Virus record (IMG/VR): IMGVR_UViG_3300049046_000055
Coordinates: 1-49,761 of that record
Strand: one strand, 5' to 3'
Source of the DNA: a virus
DNA: 49,761 bases
Position 1 is the first letter of the stretch, and each line of letters begins with the position of its first letter. The notes under the pieces are model-generated. The model saw only the letters and a program-made list of their open reading frames with translations. It did not search any database and was not told the origin of the DNA. Below are positions 487 through 28,182 of the stretch, one piece after another. A program made the position numbers and the translations under genes.

Positions 487-2202
487 TTATTTTTGTATGT
501 TGGCAGGATTCTTTGGATGATTAGGCCAGTTGTTATCCCAGAAAGGCTCGGCAACGCCGTTTGCATTATTAAAAAGGTGAAAATGAGATATATTAGAAGT
601 GTTTACTCCCGCCTGTCTCATTCTGGCGGCAGCACGTACGTCGTGATTCTCATCGTTTAGTGCACGCTTAGTGTGATCTAAGTGAACGTTAGGATTCAAT
701 ACTACTGCAGCTCTTCTATGCTGATCTCCGGTCGACAATGCCTTATCTATTGCATTATCAGAAATCTTACCATGAGAATATATTAAGTCTGCTGAGCTAT
801 CTTCAGTGTTTTGCAATAACTTATCGGTGTGCGACTCATCGTGATTCTTATTATTCAACACGCTCCAGCTAGCGTGCCCAACTTTAGAGCCTAACTTGTC
901 GATAGCGTAGTGTAAGTCTTCACCTTTAATTTTACTGCTAGATATAAGAGCGTCGCTGTTCAAGGCTTTAAGACGACCACCGTCAACTAACTCTCTAAAA
1001 GTCTTACTATCATAGTGTGGACTGTTATTGACTGCATGAGAAATCGCTTTATATTTGTTTTCTTCAATCGGACCTGTCTCATTATACCAAGCGTCTCTGT
1101 ACGCATCTTCATCATCTTCAAGATGAGCGTACTTGTGCTTAACTTGATCCCAGTGCTCGTCCATGTCATCATCGACTCTTGAAGTTATGAAGTGTTTGAA
1201 TTCTTTAGGATCGACGTGCTTAGAAGCCCAAGATCCTACGTATCCTCTATTATTCCAATGTGACTTTTCTTCGTCTACTTCATCTTTAGGTGCGTGATTA
1301 GCGTAGTAGTGATTAACAACGTCTGCTTCAAGATGATGTTTTGATGCGTGTGGATTGTTCTTAGCGCTCTCGACGTGCTGATCGTATAGGTCAAGATGAT
1401 GCTTCATCTCGTGTGGAAGACTACTTCTTTCTACAGGCTCGTCCTTCTCGTTCATGAGCTGCTTAGTGCTTCGATGATACTGATACTTCTCACCGGAGTA
1501 TGAAGCGCTATGCGGTATAAGAATGTGCATCGGCCCACTCTTATTATAGTGATCAAACATACTGTTTTCCAGCTTGTCAGTAGCAGTACACCAGCGAGTT
1601 CCCTTACCGAAGTGCTGAGCAGCTTCAGGAGTATGAGGTATGATCTTTGTAAAGCTTCCGTGACTCTCGGTAGTAGAGTGTTCAGGACTCTTCATCTTCT
1701 CGTGATACGCTCTAGCTTCAGCATTATTAGACTCTACATCAGCGTAACCCTCCATGGCGTGCTCAAACTCACCCATGTTCTTGAAGCGCCCCATGTCGGT
1801 GTGCTCGGGATTTAGCTTTCTGTTTGTAGCGAGCCTGTGAAACTTAGCCACGTTTGAAGCCATTCGGCTGTCTACGTCCTCGAAGTTATTAATACCGGCA
1901 CCGAGCATCTTAGCCATATGAGGAACGTACTTCTTGTTTGGAGAAGGATCTAACTTTTCGAGGTGACCTAATACGTGATGCTTATTAAGCTCGTTCCACT
2001 TATTAGCCGAAGTTTCTGGACTCTTCATCAGGTGAGTGGTATACTCTTTGTCTATTGCAGCAACTAGAGGATGATGTCTACTATTATCTAGATGGTGACC
2101 CATCTCTTTGTTAATCTTATCACCATATCTAGCCCACGTCTTCTCGGCATCATACTCGAGAAGAAGCACGCACTCGCTTAGAATCTTGTACAGATGTTTC
2201 AT
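487..2202 (-). CDS. Putative capsid-targeted internal protein with RWCT domain (571 aa)
   Basis: No specific function is recognised. The N terminus MKHLYKILSE closely resembles the T4 internal-protein capsid-targeting sequence MKTYQEFIAE, and LSE at residues 8-10 fits the gp21 protease rule (L/I)xE. The same LSE occurs at the predicted gp23 processing site. A central segment, about residues 170-260, holds GKGTRWCTA, F..Y, GP and EKYQYH, and is shared with the 470-residue paralogue at 2732-4144. The C-terminal third has helical repeats of the type RRAAVVLNPNV..DHTKRAL..ENHDVRAAA, resembling LRV/HEAT-like repeats. The protein is rich in His, Asp and Lys. Its ATG overlaps the stop of the upstream gene (ATGA), so it is translated from the late operon that starts at 4757. 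Packaging and injection are inference. Confidence 0.7.
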   Translation of the reverse strand: MKHLYKILSECVLLLEYDAEKTWARYGDKINKEMGHHLDNSRHHPLVAAIDKEYTTHLMKSPETSANKWNELNKHHVLGHLEKLDPSPNKKYVPHMAKMLGAGINNFEDVDSRMASNVAKFHRLATNRKLNPEHTDMGRFKNMGEFEHAMEGYADVESNNAEARAYHEKMKSPEHSTTESHGSFTKIIPHTPEAAQHFGKGTRWCTATDKLENSMFDHYNKSGPMHILIPHSASYSGEKYQYHRSTKQLMNEKDEPVERSSLPHEMKHHLDLYDQHVESAKNNPHASKHHLEADVVNHYYANHAPKDEVDEEKSHWNNRGYVGSWASKHVDPKEFKHFITSRVDDDMDEHWDQVKHKYAHLEDDEDAYRDAWYNETGPIEENKYKAISHAVNNSPHYDSKTFRELVDGGRLKALNSDALISSSKIKGEDLHYAIDKLGSKVGHASWSVLNNKNHDESHTDKLLQNTEDSSADLIYSHGKISDNAIDKALSTGDQHRRAAVVLNPNVHLDHTKRALNDENHDVRAAARMRQAGVNTSNISHFHLFNNANGVAEPFWDNNWPNHPKNPANIQK

Positions 2203-2732
2203 GAGCTTACTCTTATTGGTCTTACGTCGTATAGAGTGTAGTCAAACATTACCTTAGCAGTAACGACTGGCTGACCCTCGTTCGTGGTTGATAGGGTAGG
2301 TGCTGAAACCATCGTAGGAATAGCGTCTTCGAAATAGAACTCGATGTTAGAATTACGAGAGCCGGTGTTGGTGATTACCGATATCGGAGAGTGTAGGTTC
2401 TGAAATCGAGTTGCAGACCTATCTTCAATCATTCTAGAGTACTCGTCGAAGGACTCAGGAAATCCAAGGCCTCTAAGCCAAGCGTAGCATTCTCTCCATC
2501 CCTTAAGGTCTTCGTCTACAAGGAACACGACCGAAAGCTGCTCCCAGTCTATGTGATCTCCAGCCATCGGAACTCTGTTAAAAGGGTTGTCTGAAGACAC
2601 GGCTGGAAGATTGATAGACGGTAGGGACACTGTCTGCACGAAAAATGTTAGAGTTGGAGCCTTGTGAATGTAGATCCTAAACTCGTTAGGATTCAGAAGA
2701 CTCATGTTCTCAGGTGCGCACTGTACACTCAT
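2199..2732 (-). CDS. Tail-tube-like or tail-completion structural protein (177 aa)
   Basis: The protein resembles the gp19 tail tube family: an N-terminal 'NPNEFRIYIHKAPTLTFFVQ' strand region, a 'PFNRVPMAGDHIDWEQLSVVFLVDEDL' block comparable to 'VPVGYFGRDIKVAGDR...IINDEDF' in the gp19 of this phage, and a C-terminal beta-rich 'FDYTLYDVRPI'. The length matches T4 gp3 (176 aa), the tail-tube terminator, and exo-T4 phages often have a tail gene between gp23 and uvsY; the gp3 assignment is not proven. The start overlaps the 470-residue gene stop (TAATG) and the end overlaps the 571-residue gene start (ATGA), so it is embedded in the internal-protein operon. It probably acts in the tail or neck. 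Confidence 0.6.
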   Translation of the reverse strand: MSVQCAPENMSLLNPNEFRIYIHKAPTLTFFVQTVSLPSINLPAVSSDNPFNRVPMAGDHIDWEQLSVVFLVDEDLKGWRECYAWLRGLGFPESFDEYSRMIEDRSATRFQNLHSPISVITNTGSRNSNIEFYFEDAIPTMVSAPTLSTTNEGQPVVTAKVMFDYTLYDVRPIRVSS

Positions 2733-4144
2733 TATTCTACTTCTTTCTCTTCGTATATGTGAGCGTTATTAGACACGTCTGAGTGATGGTCTCTCTTAAG
2801 TCTAGTTCTCAGGTGATCTGGAAGATTAGGATTCATCGCCAGAGAACTTCTAACCTTATCACTTTCGTGCTCGGCATACTCATCCATCTTGTAAGAAGGC
2901 AACTTAGCGTGTCTAGCAATGATTGAAGTCATGTGATGATCTTTATTCGCTGGATGCTCTTCGATAGCCTCGACGTGCTCTGGCTTAAGGTTCATGTGCT
3001 CTTCGTGACCTTCGTCAGGTCTAAAGAGCTTGTGTATAGCCGCAGCAGATCCATCGTACCACTCGGTGTCGATGTGGTGGTCTATCGCTTTTTTAGTTAT
3101 AGCTTTAACGTCTGAGTTACTGTCGTCTATGTAGTCGTGCATCGACGCTTTAAGAGCGATGTAAGGGTTCTTATGGTTAATAAGACTCTGACCTAACTCG
3201 TGATGTATGTCTTGCGTATTTTCTATCGAGCTGAGTACAACCTTAGGTTCAGCATGAGTCAGGCCTCTAACACCAGAAGCCGAGCTAGATTTGTCTGCCA
3301 TGTCAGCATAAGCTCTTATGTGGTGATCTATTTCTGGATGATTTACTCTGATCTTATCCTTTGCGTCTTCATCCTTCTCATCCATAAGCTGATTAGAAGA
3401 GTAGTGATACTGATACTTCTCTCCAGCGTACATTGGATTCTTAGGAATGAATACGTGAAGAGGTCCGTGATTGTTATAGTAGTTGAACATGCCGTGCTCA
3501 CTGTCGTCACCGTCAGTGGTGCACCAGCGAGTTCCCTTACCGAAGTGCTGAGCTGCAGCAGTAGTATGTGGAGTAATTCTAGTGAAGTGTGGATGATCTT
3601 CAGTCGTAGAGTGTTCGGGACTCTTCATCAGCTCGTGATACTGACGATCTTCTTCCTTACCGCTAAGATTGTCGGCATGCTTCTCCACGACGTCTTCAAG
3701 ATCGGAAAGACTCTTGTACTTGCCGATATCGCGGTGCTCGACTGGGATAATCTTACGCTTAGAAAGATCGTGAAACTTTTCTAGTGCAGGCTTCATTCTA
3801 GCGTGCAGATCTTCTAGCCTGTTTACACCACCACTTCCATACATTCTAGCGATGTGCTGAACGTACTGCTTGTTTGGAGTGGGGTCTGAGTTCTCTAGAT
3901 GTGGTTGCACTTTTTCTCTAATGAAGTCGTGCACGCCCTCCATAGAGTAGCTCGTCTCACCTCTTTTGATGCTTGCCATCGCGGTAGCAGTACCATACTT
4001 AATATGACCTAGGTGTGAGTCGTGATCCCAAGTAGACATAACTCGATCTACCACTTTCTTGCCGTGTCTCTCCCAAGTCTTATCAGCATCGTACTCGAGG
4101 AGTAGTACGCACTCGCTTAGAATCTTGTACAGATGCTTGGACAT
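2732..4144 (-). CDS. Putative capsid-targeted internal protein with RWCT domain and LRV-like repeats (470 aa)
   Basis: This is a paralogue of the 571-residue protein at 487-2202. The N terminus MSKHLYKILSE carries LSE at residues 9-11, giving a candidate gp21 cut after Glu11, followed by CVLLLEYDA as in the paralogue. The shared middle domain contains SPEHSTTE, PHTTAAAQHFGKGTRWCT, MFNYYN..GP and GEKYQYHYSS. The C terminus carries repeats such as KVRSSLAMNPNLPDHLRTRL, close to the 'VRxxLAxNPNLP' pattern of LRV-type helical repeats. The start ATG overlaps the stop of the ParB-like gene (TAATG). The likely role is a head-packaged protein of unknown activity; the RWCT domain occurs in phage hypothetical proteins but its biochemistry is unknown to me. 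Confidence 0.7.
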   Translation of the reverse strand: MSKHLYKILSECVLLLEYDADKTWERHGKKVVDRVMSTWDHDSHLGHIKYGTATAMASIKRGETSYSMEGVHDFIREKVQPHLENSDPTPNKQYVQHIARMYGSGGVNRLEDLHARMKPALEKFHDLSKRKIIPVEHRDIGKYKSLSDLEDVVEKHADNLSGKEEDRQYHELMKSPEHSTTEDHPHFTRITPHTTAAAQHFGKGTRWCTTDGDDSEHGMFNYYNNHGPLHVFIPKNPMYAGEKYQYHYSSNQLMDEKDEDAKDKIRVNHPEIDHHIRAYADMADKSSSASGVRGLTHAEPKVVLSSIENTQDIHHELGQSLINHKNPYIALKASMHDYIDDSNSDVKAITKKAIDHHIDTEWYDGSAAAIHKLFRPDEGHEEHMNLKPEHVEAIEEHPANKDHHMTSIIARHAKLPSYKMDEYAEHESDKVRSSLAMNPNLPDHLRTRLKRDHHSDVSNNAHIYEEKEVE

Positions 4145-4737
4145 TAACTAACTCCTAATCTCTTAGCTCTAACCTGCATGCGTAGAGCACTGATATCATC
4201 GTCGTGCATGAAGTCTACTGGATGTGGTGAGCCACTCTTTGTTTCAGATCCACCCTCCCAACTCCAGTGAGTTGGTATGGTCTTGTGTCCTAGTTGAGCA
4301 GACGCTCTAGTTCTCTTATTACCTTCGTGAACTACTGCCTCACCGGTGTTGAGAACCTTAATCATAGCACCGTTTTCGTGTTCGGTATGTGGGTCTTTTT
4401 CGTGAAACCCTTCAGACTTAATTCTACCCTTGATCTTCTGAAACTCGTGATTCCACTGGCTGTCTTCTCTATCGACGTGCAGGTGCTCTCCATTACGTCC
4501 ATTTAGAGCTGCTAGCTTATTAGGATCTAGTCTAAGATTGTAGAAATGATTCTTCTCGTCTGGATGACCGTTGTAGTATGAAGACAGCGATCTAGGATTA
4601 CGAGCCATCCAGCCTTCGCCGTGGACAGGGTCTCTTACTTCTGGATTATCGTGTCTGCGACGGTGATGCTCGTCAAAGTGAGCGATGAGTTCATCGCGAC
4701 TAATAGACTCACATATAATCTGCTTCAGTGACTTCAT
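4144..4737 (-). CDS. Putative capsid-targeted protein with ParB/sulfiredoxin-like motif (197 aa)
   Basis: The open frame extends upstream to 4896, but that would run into the gp23 terminator. The ATG at 4737 follows a good ribosome site (GAGGAG, 6 bases away) and gives the N terminus MKSLKQIICE. ICE at residues 8-10 fits the (L/I)xE gp21 site, placed exactly as in T4 internal proteins. The C-terminal part contains a 'GEAVVHEGNKRTRASAQLG' / 'HKTIPTHW' segment, typical of the ParB/sulfiredoxin-fold core (E-G-N-x-R-x-x-A-x-x-x-G-x-x-x-I-P). This fold includes nucleotide-binding and nuclease-like phage proteins; activity here cannot be assigned. It is the first gene of a late operon with promoter octamer at 4757. 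Confidence 0.65.
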   Translation of the reverse strand: MKSLKQIICESISRDELIAHFDEHHRRRHDNPEVRDPVHGEGWMARNPRSLSSYYNGHPDEKNHFYNLRLDPNKLAALNGRNGEHLHVDREDSQWNHEFQKIKGRIKSEGFHEKDPHTEHENGAMIKVLNTGEAVVHEGNKRTRASAQLGHKTIPTHWSWEGGSETKSGSPHPVDFMHDDDISALRMQVRAKRLGVS

Positions 4738-4756: not shown

Positions 4757-4764
4757 TATTTATA
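4757..4764 (-). promoter_or_regulatory. T4-type late promoter octamer for the internal-protein operon
   Basis: The minus strand reads exactly TATAAATA about 20 bases before the ATG at 4737 and just after the gp23 terminator. This is the T4 late promoter consensus recognised by gp55/gp33-modified RNA polymerase. Confidence 0.75.
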
Positions 4765-4771
4765 GAACGCA

Positions 4772-4802
4772 AATAAAAAGGGTGGCCCCGAAGAGCCACC
4801 CC
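4772..4802 (-). terminator. Intrinsic terminator after gp23 with UUCG loop
   Basis: On the minus strand GGGTGGCTC pairs with GGGCCACCC (one G-U) around a C(TTCG)G tetraloop, followed by TTTTTATTT. It begins about 30 bases beyond the gp23 stop and separates the capsid gene from the next late promoter. Confidence 0.88.
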
Positions 4803-4831: not shown

Positions 4832-6178
4832 TTACATAAGGTTGTTAACGATCGTACGACGGTAGTAAACGTTAGAGTTAGGGTTAAGAGCACCACTACC
4901 CTCGGTTAGACCTTCCGCGTATGGGTTAGCTACCATGCCGTAACGGGTCTTGAAACCAATCTTTGGCTGGAAGCTGTTTGGATCGACTGCACGAACCATC
5001 TGTAGTGGAACGTATGGGCAGTAGAACAGACCAGCGTCGAATGGGTTAGTACCCTTGAAGCCGATCGTTAGGTAGTTACCACCGATCGCGTATGGGTCGA
5101 TGTAGACCTTTAGACGGCCGTTAAGAACACCCGCGAAGGTATTACCGGTATCGTCGATCTGCATGTTGTTGTTGCGATCTAGAGCAGGGGTGTAGTCTAG
5201 AACACCAGCCATCTGAAGCGCAGAAGCTACGTCCGCAGAGCAGATAACGATGTTACCCTTACCTCTACGAGTTTCTTTTGCGATCACGTTAGCTTCTCTT
5301 TCGAGCTGGAACATAAGACCCTTGAACTTCTCTACTGACCAACGGCCGTTAGAGTCGGTGTCTAGGTCGAAGATACCAGGAGTTGCAACGTCGGTTAGAG
5401 AACCCTGCTTAGCGCAAGCGTTAACTGTACGTACTACTTCACGGTTGATCTCAGCAAGAATTTCCGTAGAAAGAATGTTGCTGAGCTCAGTTTCAGCATC
5501 TAGGCCGTGAACTGCCTTAAGATCCTGAGCGAGTTCCATGGTGTACTCAGCCTTTAGCGCACGGCCCTTTGCAGTAACCGTTACCTTCTCGATGCTGAAC
5601 GCCATCTCTGCGAATGCAGTGTTAGAGTCAGTACCAAGAGCTTCAAGCTGCGCAGTGCTCATACCAGAACCGGTGTTGTAGGTGTTAACTACGCCGGTTG
5701 GAAGCTGACCAACGTGCTTCTGGCCAAAGGTGTTAGCACCCGTGACTACAGAAGAGAACGCGGTGTTAACTTCGTTGTAGAAGGTCTCTGCGCCAGTCTG
5801 GTTGGTGTAACGTGATCTCATCGCGAAGATGAGGCCAGTTGGACCACTCATTGGCTGAACACCAGCGATATCGTATGCCATTAGGTTTGGCATAGAACGA
5901 CGTACTAGTGAGATTAGGATTGGGTCGAAAGCATCGATGTTACCACCGGTGCCTGCGTTAGCAGAAGAGTTACCCCATGCGTTAGCATGGATTGGAGACG
6001 CTTCTGAAAGCAGATTGCTTGACTGACCATGTGCTGCTTCCTCACGAAGCGCTCTTTCGGTATTCTCAAGAAGCTGTGCCGTAACACTACGACGATAAGA
6101 GTCCTTGATAGGAGCCAGATCTTCGTGCTCAAGAATTGGCTGCCACTTCTTGCGAGTTTCCTCAGCTAGGTTAAACAT
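4832..6178 (-). CDS. gp23: Major capsid protein gp23
   Basis: This 448-residue protein forms the hexameric shell of the head. It matches the gp23 family from its helical delta domain (MFNLAEETRKKWQPILEHED) through the 'LISLVRRSMPNLMAYDIAGVQPM' segment and 'GLIFAMRSRY' to the C-terminal 'KIGFKTRYGMVANP'. The candidate prohead protease site is LSE at residues 57-59 followed by ASP, comparable to T4 cleavage after Glu65. It is shorter than T4 gp23 (521 aa), as in other exo-T4 phages. No gp24 vertex gene follows. A perfect late promoter lies upstream and a UUCG terminator downstream, as expected for high-level monocistronic expression. The ribosome site is AGGGAGCAATAAATG. Confidence 0.97.
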   Translation of the reverse strand: MFNLAEETRKKWQPILEHEDLAPIKDSYRRSVTAQLLENTERALREEAAHGQSSNLLSEASPIHANAWGNSSANAGTGGNIDAFDPILISLVRRSMPNLMAYDIAGVQPMSGPTGLIFAMRSRYTNQTGAETFYNEVNTAFSSVVTGANTFGQKHVGQLPTGVVNTYNTGSGMSTAQLEALGTDSNTAFAEMAFSIEKVTVTAKGRALKAEYTMELAQDLKAVHGLDAETELSNILSTEILAEINREVVRTVNACAKQGSLTDVATPGIFDLDTDSNGRWSVEKFKGLMFQLEREANVIAKETRRGKGNIVICSADVASALQMAGVLDYTPALDRNNNMQIDDTGNTFAGVLNGRLKVYIDPYAIGGNYLTIGFKGTNPFDAGLFYCPYVPLQMVRAVDPNSFQPKIGFKTRYGMVANPYAEGLTEGSGALNPNSNVYYRRTIVNNLM

Positions 6179-6210: not shown

Positions 6211-6218
6211 TATTTATA
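6211..6218 (-). promoter_or_regulatory. T4-type late promoter octamer for gp23
   Basis: The minus strand reads exactly TATAAATA, 33 bases upstream of the gp23 ATG and just after the gp22 stop. Confidence 0.82.
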
Positions 6219-6238: not shown

Positions 6239-7240
6239 TTACTTGCGAATTGTGCGTGAGATCGAGTCAATGTAGCGCTTAACTTGTGGGTCTACACCAG
6301 CATCTGGTGCGTTACCTCTAAGCGCTGCGTCAGGGTCACTTTCCTCGACGATCATGCCGGTAGAAGGAGCGTTAGACGCCTTCTTGGTGACACTTTCAGC
6401 GAGAATTGAAACCTTACGAGTGTAAGCATCAAGATCACCATCAAACTCTACACTCTCACAAAGAGCACGTAGTTTTTCTGCTTGAGTTAGGGTCATACCC
6501 TCGCAAACAGTGTTAACTGCGTCCTGCTTTCTGCTCTCTAAAACTTCGCTCTTAAGGCGAGCGTTTTCAGTTAGAGCAGCGTCTAAGCTCTCTTCAAGAT
6601 TTGCGTTCTTGGCAGCTAGCTCTTCAGCAATGTTTACCTCTTCTTCTGGCACGTTAAAGTTGTGCTCGAGGAATAGATTCCTCATGCCAGCGATGAAGTT
6701 TTCGGTAATTTCGGTACGTAGTGCAGACTCTACGGCTACTTCGTTTTCCTTAAGCCATGCTTCTGCAATATGATCTAGATAAGCGTCTAGCTTCTCAACC
6801 ATTTCCGACTTCATGGTGTCGAAAGCTTCTTCTAGATTCTGGTTCATCTCTTCGATTAGAGCTTCACGCTCAATCACTAGTCTAGCTTCAACAGCAGTCT
6901 CAAAGAGAACTGATGCCTTTTCGCGAAGCTCTTCAGATAGCTCTTCGCCTTCGCTAAGAATTTCTGATAGATCCGACTTTACTGACTCCTTCATAGCAGA
7001 TGAAGCGGCAGATGGCTTCATTGCTAGAGTAGCCTGATTGCTAGAGGAAGCGTCTGGTGCGCCGCCGCCGTTCAGTGAGCTACCCTTGTCGCTAACTTGA
7101 GCGAGAGTATCGTTAAGAAAATGTGATAGGTCTTCAATATCTAGGCCAGCCATCTTTGCAAGTGCTGCGCCTAGCATCTGAGACTTGTTCTGAGGCTTTA
7201 GCGTATCGCTAGCAACAGACTCTTCTACTGGCTTCGTCAT
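6239..7240 (-). CDS. gp22: Prohead scaffold protein gp22
   Basis: This 333-residue acidic, coiled-coil-rich protein has the position (between gp21 and gp23) and character of the T4 internal scaffold gp22 (269 aa). It forms the core around which gp23 assembles and is then degraded by gp21. It contains several candidate (L/I)xE cleavage sites, including three close together near residues 91-103 (DLSE, ILSE, ELSE). Long helical stretches such as EVNIAEELAAKNANLEESLDAAL fit a coiled-coil core. The low-complexity N-terminal part, with GGGAPDASSSNQ, is likely flexible. A perfect TATAAATA lies just upstream. Confidence 0.92.
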   Translation of the reverse strand: MTKPVEESVASDTLKPQNKSQMLGAALAKMAGLDIEDLSHFLNDTLAQVSDKGSSLNGGGAPDASSSNQATLAMKPSAASSAMKESVKSDLSEILSEGEELSEELREKASVLFETAVEARLVIEREALIEEMNQNLEEAFDTMKSEMVEKLDAYLDHIAEAWLKENEVAVESALRTEITENFIAGMRNLFLEHNFNVPEEEVNIAEELAAKNANLEESLDAALTENARLKSEVLESRKQDAVNTVCEGMTLTQAEKLRALCESVEFDGDLDAYTRKVSILAESVTKKASNAPSTGMIVEESDPDAALRGNAPDAGVDPQVKRYIDSISRTIRK

Positions 7241-7264: not shown

Positions 7265-7272
7265 TATTTATA
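7265..7272 (-). promoter_or_regulatory. T4-type late promoter octamer for gp22
   Basis: The minus strand reads exactly TATAAATA, 25 bases upstream of the gp22 ATG at 7240 and downstream of the small 40-residue gene. Confidence 0.78.
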
Positions 7273-7658: not shown

Positions 7659-8330
7659 TTATCTCTTCTTGTTAGTTAGAGTCTTAAAGAAAGTTTCTAG
7701 AAGCGCTAGCTTATTCTCATTGATGACCTTAGCAGGAGCTGACTTCATCTGCTCTGCAAGCTTCTCAATGCCGCGCTCTGCCCAAGTGCCGCTGATTGGG
7801 TCAAATATCCAAGCTCGACCTTCCATGATTCCCTGAACAAAAGCGTCAGGAGCTGATGGGTCTGCAACGACGTCAGCTAGCGTCGCTAGTCTAAAGTCGT
7901 TCTGGACTCTTTGAACGCCCTCGACCATCTTGATAGAGCCCATACCTCTAGAAGACACGCCGAGCTGGCAACCTTCCTTGATGTAGCCCTCGACAATCTT
8001 ACCCATAGGAAGTTCGGTTAGAACTCGAGCCTTACCGATAAAATTATCGCCGTCTCTTCTTACGTTCTCGTGAAGAATGCAGACGCGATCTAGATTGATG
8101 GTTGGTCCCTGTGGGTGTCCAAGCTCACCGTAAGCTCTATTAGACTTTACGTTCTCTTTTACGTATCGGCTGATTTCGTTCTCTAGAATATCCGCGTCGT
8201 AGATACGACCGTTACGGTTCTTGATGTTACCCTGAAGGAAAGTACCCTCGAGGTACATCTTCTTCTTACCTTCAGAGGTTTCTTCGATAAGGAATCTAGA
8301 GTCCTCGATGTTTTCGCAAATTAAAAACAT
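7659..8330 (-). CDS. gp21: Prohead core protease gp21
   Basis: This 223-residue protein is close in length to T4 gp21 (212 aa), the serine protease that matures the prohead by cutting gp22, gp23 and internal proteins after (L/I)xE. Candidate catalytic residues are His72 in 'YGELGHPQGPTINLDRV' and Ser126/Ser127 in 'LGVSSRGMGS', which match the pattern of the herpes-protease-like fold in this family. The start ATG at 8330 follows AAGGAAAG. It lies between the gp67-like gene and the small 68-residue gene, as expected. Its specificity appears in this window as LSE in gp23 and in the putative internal proteins. Confidence 0.95.
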   Translation of the reverse strand: MFLICENIEDSRFLIEETSEGKKKMYLEGTFLQGNIKNRNGRIYDADILENEISRYVKENVKSNRAYGELGHPQGPTINLDRVCILHENVRRDGDNFIGKARVLTELPMGKIVEGYIKEGCQLGVSSRGMGSIKMVEGVQRVQNDFRLATLADVVADPSAPDAFVQGIMEGRAWIFDPISGTWAERGIEKLAEQMKSAPAKVINENKLALLETFFKTLTNKKR

Positions 8331-8576: not shown

Positions 8577-10178
8577 TTACTTTCCTTCTTCAGGTAACGG
8601 TGGCAGCTCTGGAGAGTCGCTAAATCCATTAGCGTCAGGATCCAGTAGCGCCGGATTAAACTGTGGATTCATTAGCTCTTCTGCGATTTCTTCATCCATT
8701 ATCGCCTGCTCCTCCTCGTCTTGCTGAAGGATGTTCTTACGCACCCATCTCCAAGAGAAGGCCTTACCGATGAATGGATATACTGTTTCGAGAAGATTTA
8801 GTCTGTTGTTTAAGACTTCGGCTTCCTTAAGCTCGGCAAAATAGTTATCGCGAGTAAAGCGGAATCGAATGTCTTGCTTGATGAGAAGCCAGTCGTCGTA
8901 AGAAGCGATTCCCTTGAGAATGAGTTGCTTCTCGACTAGCTGTAAGAATAGCTTCGCGAATCTGGTACGAAGTCTATCGATGAACTTAGCGAACTTGATC
9001 TCGTCTCGGCTAATCTGAGTAGCTCTTCCGAGGTCGAACATAGCCTCTGAGTCTAGACGAGTAACTGGAACGTTAAGAGATCTGTAGAGCTGCTTCTGGA
9101 AGTACAGAACGTCGTCCATCTGACCTAGATTCTGACCGCCTGGAAGAATGTCGACCTGAGTACCTCTACCACCTTCTCTACGAGGAAGCCAGTAGTCCTC
9201 AAGCATCGTCATATACTTACGGTCGTCTCTTATCTCACCGCTCATAGAGTCGTAAACTAAGCGATTCTTGTGCTTAGTCATGATGTCCTGTAGATACTGT
9301 TCGGCTTTCATCTTAGGAAGATTACCGACGTCTACGTACCATATTCTACGCTCTGGAGCTCTCGATAGACGGTAGATAATTGCCGCGTTTTCGAGTGTTC
9401 TTAGCTGGTTGGTCTCTCGTATAGCCTTCTGAAGATGGCCCATGACTAGAGTGCCGTTGGCGTCTGTCATACCAGAGCTGATAAGAACGACCGAGTCTCG
9501 AGCAATCTTTAGTCCCTGTGTAGCGGCTTGCTGAGCGATACCGACCGTCTGATTCTTGGTTGAGAAACCCTTCTCATTGTAGATGTAGTACTCGTTAACT
9601 ACTCTCTTTAGAGTAGCGTCACCGTCACCTAGCATTCTACCCTGAGTGCCGGATACCTTTTCAGTCTTGATCTCGCGCACCTTTCTAATCTTGCGCGGGT
9701 CTAAGTATCTCAACTCTCTGATACCCATCGCTGGGTCGTCGATGATAACGTGATAGTAAAGACGGCCGTCAATGTACCATCTTCTGAACACTTCGTACGG
9801 CTGGCTGTCAAACTCAAGGAGCTTCAGTATTTGCTGAAACTCTTGCTCTATGATTTGCTTGATCTTTGGTGGAGCGTTAACGTTGTCTAGAATAATATCT
9901 ACGACCGAATTATCGCTGTCTAGAGTGATAGCTTCATTGACTATCTCGTCGATAGCTGAGTCTACTTCTGGTTGAGTAGCTATCTCTCGATACTTTGTAA
10001 TGAGGTCCGCTTCGTTACGTACCGTTCCGTCTAGATCTAAAACAGTGTCGTAAGCACCACCGGTGGCACCAGTAGACTGTACTAGTACAGCACCGTCGTC
10101 ATTGTTTGGTGGAGCGAAAGAAACTGTCTGCGCTTCGATCTGTGTCTTGCGCTTGATCTCGAATCCAAATAAGTTCAT
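8577..10178 (-). CDS. gp20: Portal vertex protein gp20
   Basis: This 533-residue protein (T4 524 aa) forms the dodecameric portal that initiates prohead assembly, and through which DNA is packaged and released. Family features include 'RNEADLITKYREIATQPEVDSAIDEIVNEAI' near residues 50-85, 'YYHVIIDDP..GIRELRYLDPRKIRKVREI', 'RIWYVDVGNLPKMKAEQYLQDIM' and 'LPGGQNLGQMDDVLYFQKQLYRSLNVP'. The C terminus is acidic and Pro-rich (SPELPPLPEEGK). A 9-base-pair hairpin precedes the ribosome site. Confidence 0.97.
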   Translation of the reverse strand: MNLFGFEIKRKTQIEAQTVSFAPPNNDDGAVLVQSTGATGGAYDTVLDLDGTVRNEADLITKYREIATQPEVDSAIDEIVNEAITLDSDNSVVDIILDNVNAPPKIKQIIEQEFQQILKLLEFDSQPYEVFRRWYIDGRLYYHVIIDDPAMGIRELRYLDPRKIRKVREIKTEKVSGTQGRMLGDGDATLKRVVNEYYIYNEKGFSTKNQTVGIAQQAATQGLKIARDSVVLISSGMTDANGTLVMGHLQKAIRETNQLRTLENAAIIYRLSRAPERRIWYVDVGNLPKMKAEQYLQDIMTKHKNRLVYDSMSGEIRDDRKYMTMLEDYWLPRREGGRGTQVDILPGGQNLGQMDDVLYFQKQLYRSLNVPVTRLDSEAMFDLGRATQISRDEIKFAKFIDRLRTRFAKLFLQLVEKQLILKGIASYDDWLLIKQDIRFRFTRDNYFAELKEAEVLNNRLNLLETVYPFIGKAFSWRWVRKNILQQDEEEQAIMDEEIAEELMNPQFNPALLDPDANGFSDSPELPPLPEEGK

Positions 10179-12899: not shown

Positions 12900-12907
12900 T
12901 ATTTATA
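12900..12907 (-). promoter_or_regulatory. T4-type late promoter octamer for gp18
   Basis: The minus strand reads exactly TATAAATA, 34 bases upstream of the gp18 ATG at 12866 and just past the gp17 stop. Confidence 0.78.
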
Positions 12908-28174: not shown

Positions 28175-28182
28175 TATTTATA
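28175..28182 (-). promoter_or_regulatory. T4-type late promoter octamer for the 697-aa fibre
   Basis: The minus strand reads exactly TATAAATA, 30 bases before the fibre ATG at 28145 and just before the stop of the 206-residue gene is reached. Confidence 0.75.

Follow-up and report, generated by a model that had tools for sequence, protein, structure and literature searches.

Most of what is known about capsid targeting comes from T4. In the T4 internal protein (IP) IPIII, the N-terminal 10 residues are sufficient for targeting and packing, with residues 4 and 7 acting in targeting and residues 8 and 10 in processing, and gp21 cleaves after L/I-X-E (PMC9026906). This targeting leader (CTS) is the sole feature common to the IPs of the T-even phages (PMC9026906; PMC3012670).

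Three genes of a 49,761-base IMG/VR virus contig, called the window here, were compared with this and other described systems. ORF-A, ORF-B and ORF-C resemble T4 IPI, IPII and IPIII in leader length, in leader register and in their predicted late expression, and a gp21-type protease and a gp22-type scaffold are encoded in the same cluster. As in T4 IPs, the leader of the window phage is common to unrelated bodies, and gene content varies between close relatives. Like the hypervariable T-even IPs, ORF-A, ORF-B and ORF-C are lacking at this locus in a relative (G001), which carries homologues of ORF-A and ORF-B elsewhere. While the T4 IPs are basic proteins of about 8-20 kDa, ORF-A, ORF-B and ORF-C are of 22-65 kDa, near neutral (pI 6.1-7.0) and histidine-rich. 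No sequence relation to the T4 IP bodies was found with Pfam, PHROGs and NCBIfam, and, unlike T4 IPs, ORF-A and ORF-B have a second, better conserved site six residues further on.

Two further systems are similar in part. T4 Alt and the ART/ParB polyvalent proteins of phages, classed as injected effectors, are large, packaged in the head and encoded close to virion genes, as the window proteins are predicted to be. In a second relative (G002), an ART-PolyVal gene (PF18760, 3e-8; L146:4938-5546) overlaps an 845-aa homologue of ORF-A and ORF-B (L146:5543-8080), and the ART-PolyVal domain occurs in proteins for which injection has been proposed (PMC5512222). In contrast to these proteins, profile searches recognised neither an ART domain nor any other catalytic domain in ORF-A and ORF-B, and ORF-C has no detectable ParB_N. 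The other system is gp279 of phage PA5oct (PHROGs 17056/28193), annotated as a structural protein with ESI-MS/MS, in which the core of ORF-A and ORF-B is homologous (36% identity over 187 aa). This protein, with the N-terminus MKLFEVFTLYE, differs from ORF-A and ORF-B by a single (L/I)xE site and another C-terminal half, and its gene adjoins the terminase gene and not gp23.

The preferred reading, given a probability of about 0.8, is that ORF-A and ORF-B, and probably also ORF-C, are expressed late as internal proteins of the head, with a leader cut by the S77 protease and bodies that are most likely delivered to the host.

Gene setting between gp23 and uvsY

The T4-type structural cluster lies on the - strand of the window. 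The following features were assigned:

8577-10178, - strand: portal of the structural cluster
7659-8330, - strand: gp21-type prohead protease (Peptidase S77; PF03420 8e-37, phrog_207 2e-70), the presumed processing enzyme of the leaders
6239-7240, - strand: gp22-type scaffold (PF25623 4e-57), which presumably partners the leader within the core
4832-6178, - strand: gp23 major capsid protein (PF07068 7e-147), cleavage-type site LLSE59↓A
4779-4802, - strand: intrinsic-terminator-like hairpin and T-run (10-pair stem, 7 G-C pairs, tail TTTTATTTGC)
4757-4764, - strand: T4-type late promoter TATAAATA, exact match, ~20 nt upstream of ORF-C
4144-4737, - strand: ORF-C, 197 aa, 9.1% histidine, body family unassigned
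4708-4737, - strand: predicted capsid-targeting leader of ORF-C, MKSLKQIICE, possible cut ICE10↓S11, register match only
2732-4144, - strand: ORF-B, 470 aa, 9.6% histidine, WCT core with FGKGTRWCT at residues 201-209
4094-4144, - strand: leader of ORF-B, MSKHLYKILSE↓CVLLLE↓Y, two (L/I)xE sites, E17 near-invariant in the family
2199-2732, - strand: gp19-type tail-tube paralogue (phrog_45 6e-25), no leader
487-2202, - strand: ORF-A, 571 aa, 8.9% histidine, paralogue of ORF-B, also with a WCT core, C-terminal half differs
2155-2202, - strand: leader of ORF-A, MKHLYKILSE↓CVLLLE↓Y, may be cut after E10 and after E16
3-425: uvsY (PF11056 1e-21)
6211-6218 (gp23), 7265-7272 (gp22), 12900-12907 and 28175-28182, - strand: other copies of TATAAATA

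Counted from gp23, the genes are ordered ORF-C, ORF-B, the gp19-type tail-tube paralogue, ORF-A and uvsY, with overlaps of 1-4 nt between the first four. ORF-C starts at an internal ATG at 4737, and the listed 250-aa ORF is an upstream GTG extension. All five exact copies of TATAAATA in the window are found on the - strand, each a short way upstream of a gene of that strand, compared to a chance expectation of 1.27 (mean, both strands). The hairpin lies downstream of gp23, between it and the ORF-C operon, and together with the TATAAATA copy before ORF-C it indicates that the operon is real and has its own promoter; late transcription is predicted from the TATAAATA sequence. The initial annotation had placed the three genes in one late operon between gp23 and uvsY, which agrees with the tight packing, the separate TATAAATA and the gp23 terminator, but it did not mention the tail-tube paralogue that also lies inside. 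Its remark that the local gp23 site is also LSE was accurate, with LSE↓A ending at residue 59.

In G001, whose gp23 is 90% identical, the order is gp23, gp19 paralogue and uvsY, and ORF-A, ORF-B and ORF-C are missing there. Since the paralogue of G001 stands next to uvsY without leader genes, ORF-A and ORF-B/C seem to flank the paralogue of the window as separate insertions. The homologues of ORF-A and ORF-B that G001 carries elsewhere encode 1862 and 578 aa, and small leader-like ORFs adjoin its gp21 and gp22. Copies of the ORF-A/ORF-B type differ in number, in length (from 470 to 1862 aa) and in their C-terminal halves.

These comparisons bear on the possibility that ORF-A, ORF-B and ORF-C are prohead core or morphogenesis proteins, which would be targeted and cut but would act in head assembly and not be injected. 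The location of the genes in the head cluster is consistent with this, and in T4 the core proteins gp67, gp68 and gp22 are cut by gp21, while IPIII has an assembly role (PMC9026906). However, genes that are missing at this position beside a 90% identical gp23 are not conserved morphogenesis genes here, and the variable copy number, size and C-terminal halves argue against such a role, as does the homologue that overlaps an ART-PolyVal gene. A role confined to head assembly is therefore considered unlikely, and internal proteins delivered to the host are preferred.

Leaders and their predicted protease site

The window leaders MKHLYKILSECVLLLE and MKSLKQIICE are candidate capsid tags, and the N-termini first described were confirmed (MKHLYKILSE in ORF-A, MSKHLYKILSE in ORF-B and MKSLKQIICE in ORF-C). 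The T4 capsid-targeting register, defined as hydrophobic residues at 4 and 7, L/I at 8 and E at 10, fitted these three only among the 38 ORFs of the window. The fit was exact in ORF-A and ORF-C and offset by one residue in ORF-B. At internal positions of phage proteins, the pattern occurred at 202 of 131,794 positions (0.15% per position); by chance, between 0.06 N-terminal matches (with one register) and 0.17 (with three) were expected in the window, against three found. ORF-A and ORF-B are 48% identical over residues 2-273. As the two are paralogous, their leaders count as one event, and while the three T4-like N-termini of the initial annotation are real, they represent two independent cases, one of them a single duplication.

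ORF-A and ORF-B belong to a widespread unnamed phage family, mostly with a predicted removable tag, whose common core motif is (F/Y)GKGTxWCT (WCT core). Profile matches to phrog_17056 and phrog_28193 were obtained for ORF-B (7e-7 and 3e-6) and ORF-A (6e-4 and 2e-4), and both profiles were matched by all 33 aligned family members. In phages, PA5oct gp279 and its relatives were found by tblastn, as were matches in CcrBL9 and in Salicola phage SCTP-2. Scanning IMG/VR for the WCT motif yielded at least 119 stretches, which were reduced to 48 family members by removal of near-duplicates (among the matches listed). An [LI]xE ending at residue 8-12 was present in 30 of the 48 members and in 85 of 618 (14%) other ORFs at the same loci (Fisher p 2e-13, among the matches listed).

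The leader ended in [LI]xE in 31 of 31 members with an intact N-terminus in the 33-member alignment; because these were hand-picked from family members with a usable start, the figure for the 48 members is fairer. P1 (E) and P3 (L/I) were fixed in all 31, while P2 and the leader length varied, which fits a protease site and not a generic helix. Outside the WCT core region, a single residue was near-invariant, namely E17 in ORF-B numbering, which is E16 in ORF-A and precedes the presumed cut in LLE↓YDA. Counterparts of LSE10/11 were confined to the closest relatives (LNE, LFE, VAE) and a small number of others. Judged by conservation, the likeliest mature start of ORF-A and ORF-B is residue 17/18, with LSE10/11 as an extra upstream site. 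The (L/I)xE that the initial annotation saw at residue 10-11 is thus present, but the conserved cut would fall after residue 16/17. Its suggested search for the N-terminal peptide across relatives had a similarly mixed outcome, as short-peptide scans for ORF-B and ORF-C in viral and genome contigs gave nothing usable, whereas the WCT family supplied the aligned leaders.

Leaders like those of the WCT proteins also occurred on unrelated bodies in the same loci. Besides ORF-A/ORF-B and ORF-C in the window, this was found in L007, where two of four genes with MK.F..YLTE-type leaders are non-WCT, and in SCTP-2, where gp45, gp46 and gp48 have the common leader MK(V/I)(K/T)HITQYLFE and the adjoining gp49 has another leader ending in LIE. 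Similar leaders on unrelated bodies were present in L098 and L100 as well. Separately, different small proteins (for example L018:9203-9580 and L112:2326-2691) were observed to have common N-termini of type MAKKIIRLTESDLTRIVKRVIKEQ or MKFTSILKKVILEQSRFE, which contain [LI]xE and recur in many IMG/VR loci; this leader might represent a second type of capsid tag.

Searches of 20 phage records detected the S77 protease in 13, among them PA5oct, MIJ3 and SCTP-2. No gp21-type S77 protease was detected in CcrBL9, whose WCT protein is without a leader; this is one negative case and not a statistic. The short [LI]xE motif by itself is weak evidence. In PA5oct, an N-terminal [LI]xE was no predictor of virion detection by MS (11/93 vs 30/352, p 0.32), the T4 register gave 2/93 vs 2/352 (p 0.19), and prediction of virion proteins from the motif alone was rejected as not significant. 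The argument rests on register, conservation and context. In the same phage, the adjacent genes gp103-gp105 (NC_071039.1 260677-262300) were observed to start with MKLSEICILE, MKILEFNLTE and MRLNEINLIE, and the latter two have virion ESI-MS/MS notes.

A short N-terminal helix ending in glutamate is a common feature, and the leader might be part of the folded protein, with [LI]xE kept for structure and nothing packaged. The 14% of other ORFs with [LI]xE alone and the PA5oct comparison would agree with this. Yet fixed P1 and P3 beside a variable P2 and leader length, the recurrence of leaders on unrelated bodies and the virion MS note of gp279 all speak for a tag. In the AF2 model of ORF-B, moreover, the leader is a separate, detached low-pLDDT helix (3-16), and the body helix begins at residue 20. 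A purely structural helix is thus regarded as improbable, and a leader removed in the head is preferred.

Bodies and histidine content

The AF2 model of ORF-B was confident over most of residues 20-290 and weak beyond. No Pfam or NCBIfam family was found for the WCT proteins, and their fold had no significant match in the PDB. Predicted folds related to the ORF-B model were found by BFVD in other phages and giant viruses; these matches included Marseillevirus-like giant viruses, one of them annotated as an ankyrin repeat protein, and a weak match to an Indivirus FNIP-repeat protein. Kinship with PcfJ is suggestive and not significant. There were weak Foldseek matches to PcfJ-like viral proteins (E 0.05-0.6), and hhalign against PcfJ (PF14284) gave P 0.098, with 2 of 60 column shuffles scoring equally high and the WCT cysteine aligned to the PcfJ HCV cysteine. 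PcfJ was absent from the listed Pfam matches of the 33 aligned members. The C-terminal halves of ORF-A and ORF-B differ and look repeat-like by eye. LRV repeats, also seen there by eye, were rejected, as PF01816 matched only G001 and not the window.

For ORF-C, there was no convincing match in Pfam, PHROGs or NCBIfam and no match by tblastn in phages. A stretch EGNKRTRA...G...IP resembles a ParB motif by eye, but the assignment was rejected after a targeted search with PF02195 (ParB_N) gave no match at E up to 10. The single-sequence AF2 model (pLDDT 37) was unusable. None of the three bodies could be matched to a named function; a single hint at function comes from the ART-PolyVal gene that overlaps the homologue in G002.

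The three highest histidine contents among the window ORFs are those of ORF-B, ORF-C and ORF-A (9.6, 9.1 and 8.9%, respectively), compared to a window median of 1.15%; the gp19 paralogue in their operon has 1.7%. ORF-C is unrelated by sequence to ORF-A and ORF-B, yet likewise histidine-rich. The histidine richness of these proteins is a new observation, and no report of histidine-rich internal head proteins was found in a literature search of limited scope. Over the window, G001 and G002, nine leader-type or WCT proteins had a median of ~7% histidine against 1.7% in 98 others (Mann-Whitney p 3e-6, which is optimistic because the nine include homologues and two proteins added by an IMSE motif chosen after looking). 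A similar enrichment was seen in L007. Histidine richness as a general trait of the WCT family was rejected, with a family median of 1.3% (among the matches listed).

Other histidine-rich proteins were observed in the vicinity of WCT genes. In three T4-like contigs (L024, L045 and L065), rows of short proteins with ~8-14% histidine, of type FLAKYGSPKHxxxLxxHxxxxVRAxVA, adjoin a WCT gene and are probably LRV/HEAT-like repeats. Two large histidine-rich proteins, L145:11485-13485 (666 aa) and L146:2433-4892 (819 aa), have the N-termini MSYRSMESLIRGIMSE and MSYRTPENLIRQIMSE, respectively, and are possibly another head-cargo family.

Proposed packaging and delivery

In the preferred reading, the amphipathic N-terminal leader of 10-17 residues would direct each protein to the prohead core formed by the gp22 scaffold, where the gp21-type S77 protease would remove it at (L/I)xE. 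ORF-A and ORF-B would be cut most likely at the conserved LLE16/17↓YDA and possibly also at LSE10/11. The mature bodies, which would consist of the WCT core and a variable repeat-like C-terminal half in ORF-A and ORF-B and of the unassigned body in ORF-C, would remain with the DNA in the head and, upon infection, most likely pass into the host.

Packaging and prohead-protease processing of ORF-A and ORF-B are likely because of the invariant site, the modular leader, the S77 protease, the late promoter and the PA5oct homologue with ESI-MS/MS. The leaders, conserved sites, promoter and operon, protease and modular reuse are seen in the sequence, whereas cleavage in this phage, injection and any effect in the host are inferred. 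The proposal that all three proteins are packed in the head holds well for ORF-A and ORF-B. Since no homologue of ORF-C was found, its targeting and processing are no more than plausible, and it is rated a reasonably good candidate for a third head cargo. By analogy with the T4 IPs, injection of the three bodies into the host is probable, and the counter-defence role named in the initial annotation is speculation. That the proteins are instead made late to act in the producing cell (e.g., in lysis timing or superinfection exclusion) would fit the late promoter of the operon, but the leader, the protease-site conservation and the virion detection in PA5oct point to the head and make this very improbable.

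The WCT proteins might tentatively be seen as a large, so far unrecognised group of effectors that gp21-protease phages deliver from the head, with a constant WCT module behind a removable tag and C-terminal halves that vary, are often repeat-like and choose the host target. In some lineages, all packaged cargo, whether related or not, might have become histidine-rich by convergence, as an adaptation to residence in the DNA-filled head or to ejection from it; this wider proposal is rated as less likely than not. Conservation of the tag and its protease site extends over a large family of proteins from varied uncultured phages and jumbo phages, and a ten-residue signature together with an S77 protease could be used to list the proteins that a phage likely delivers with its DNA.
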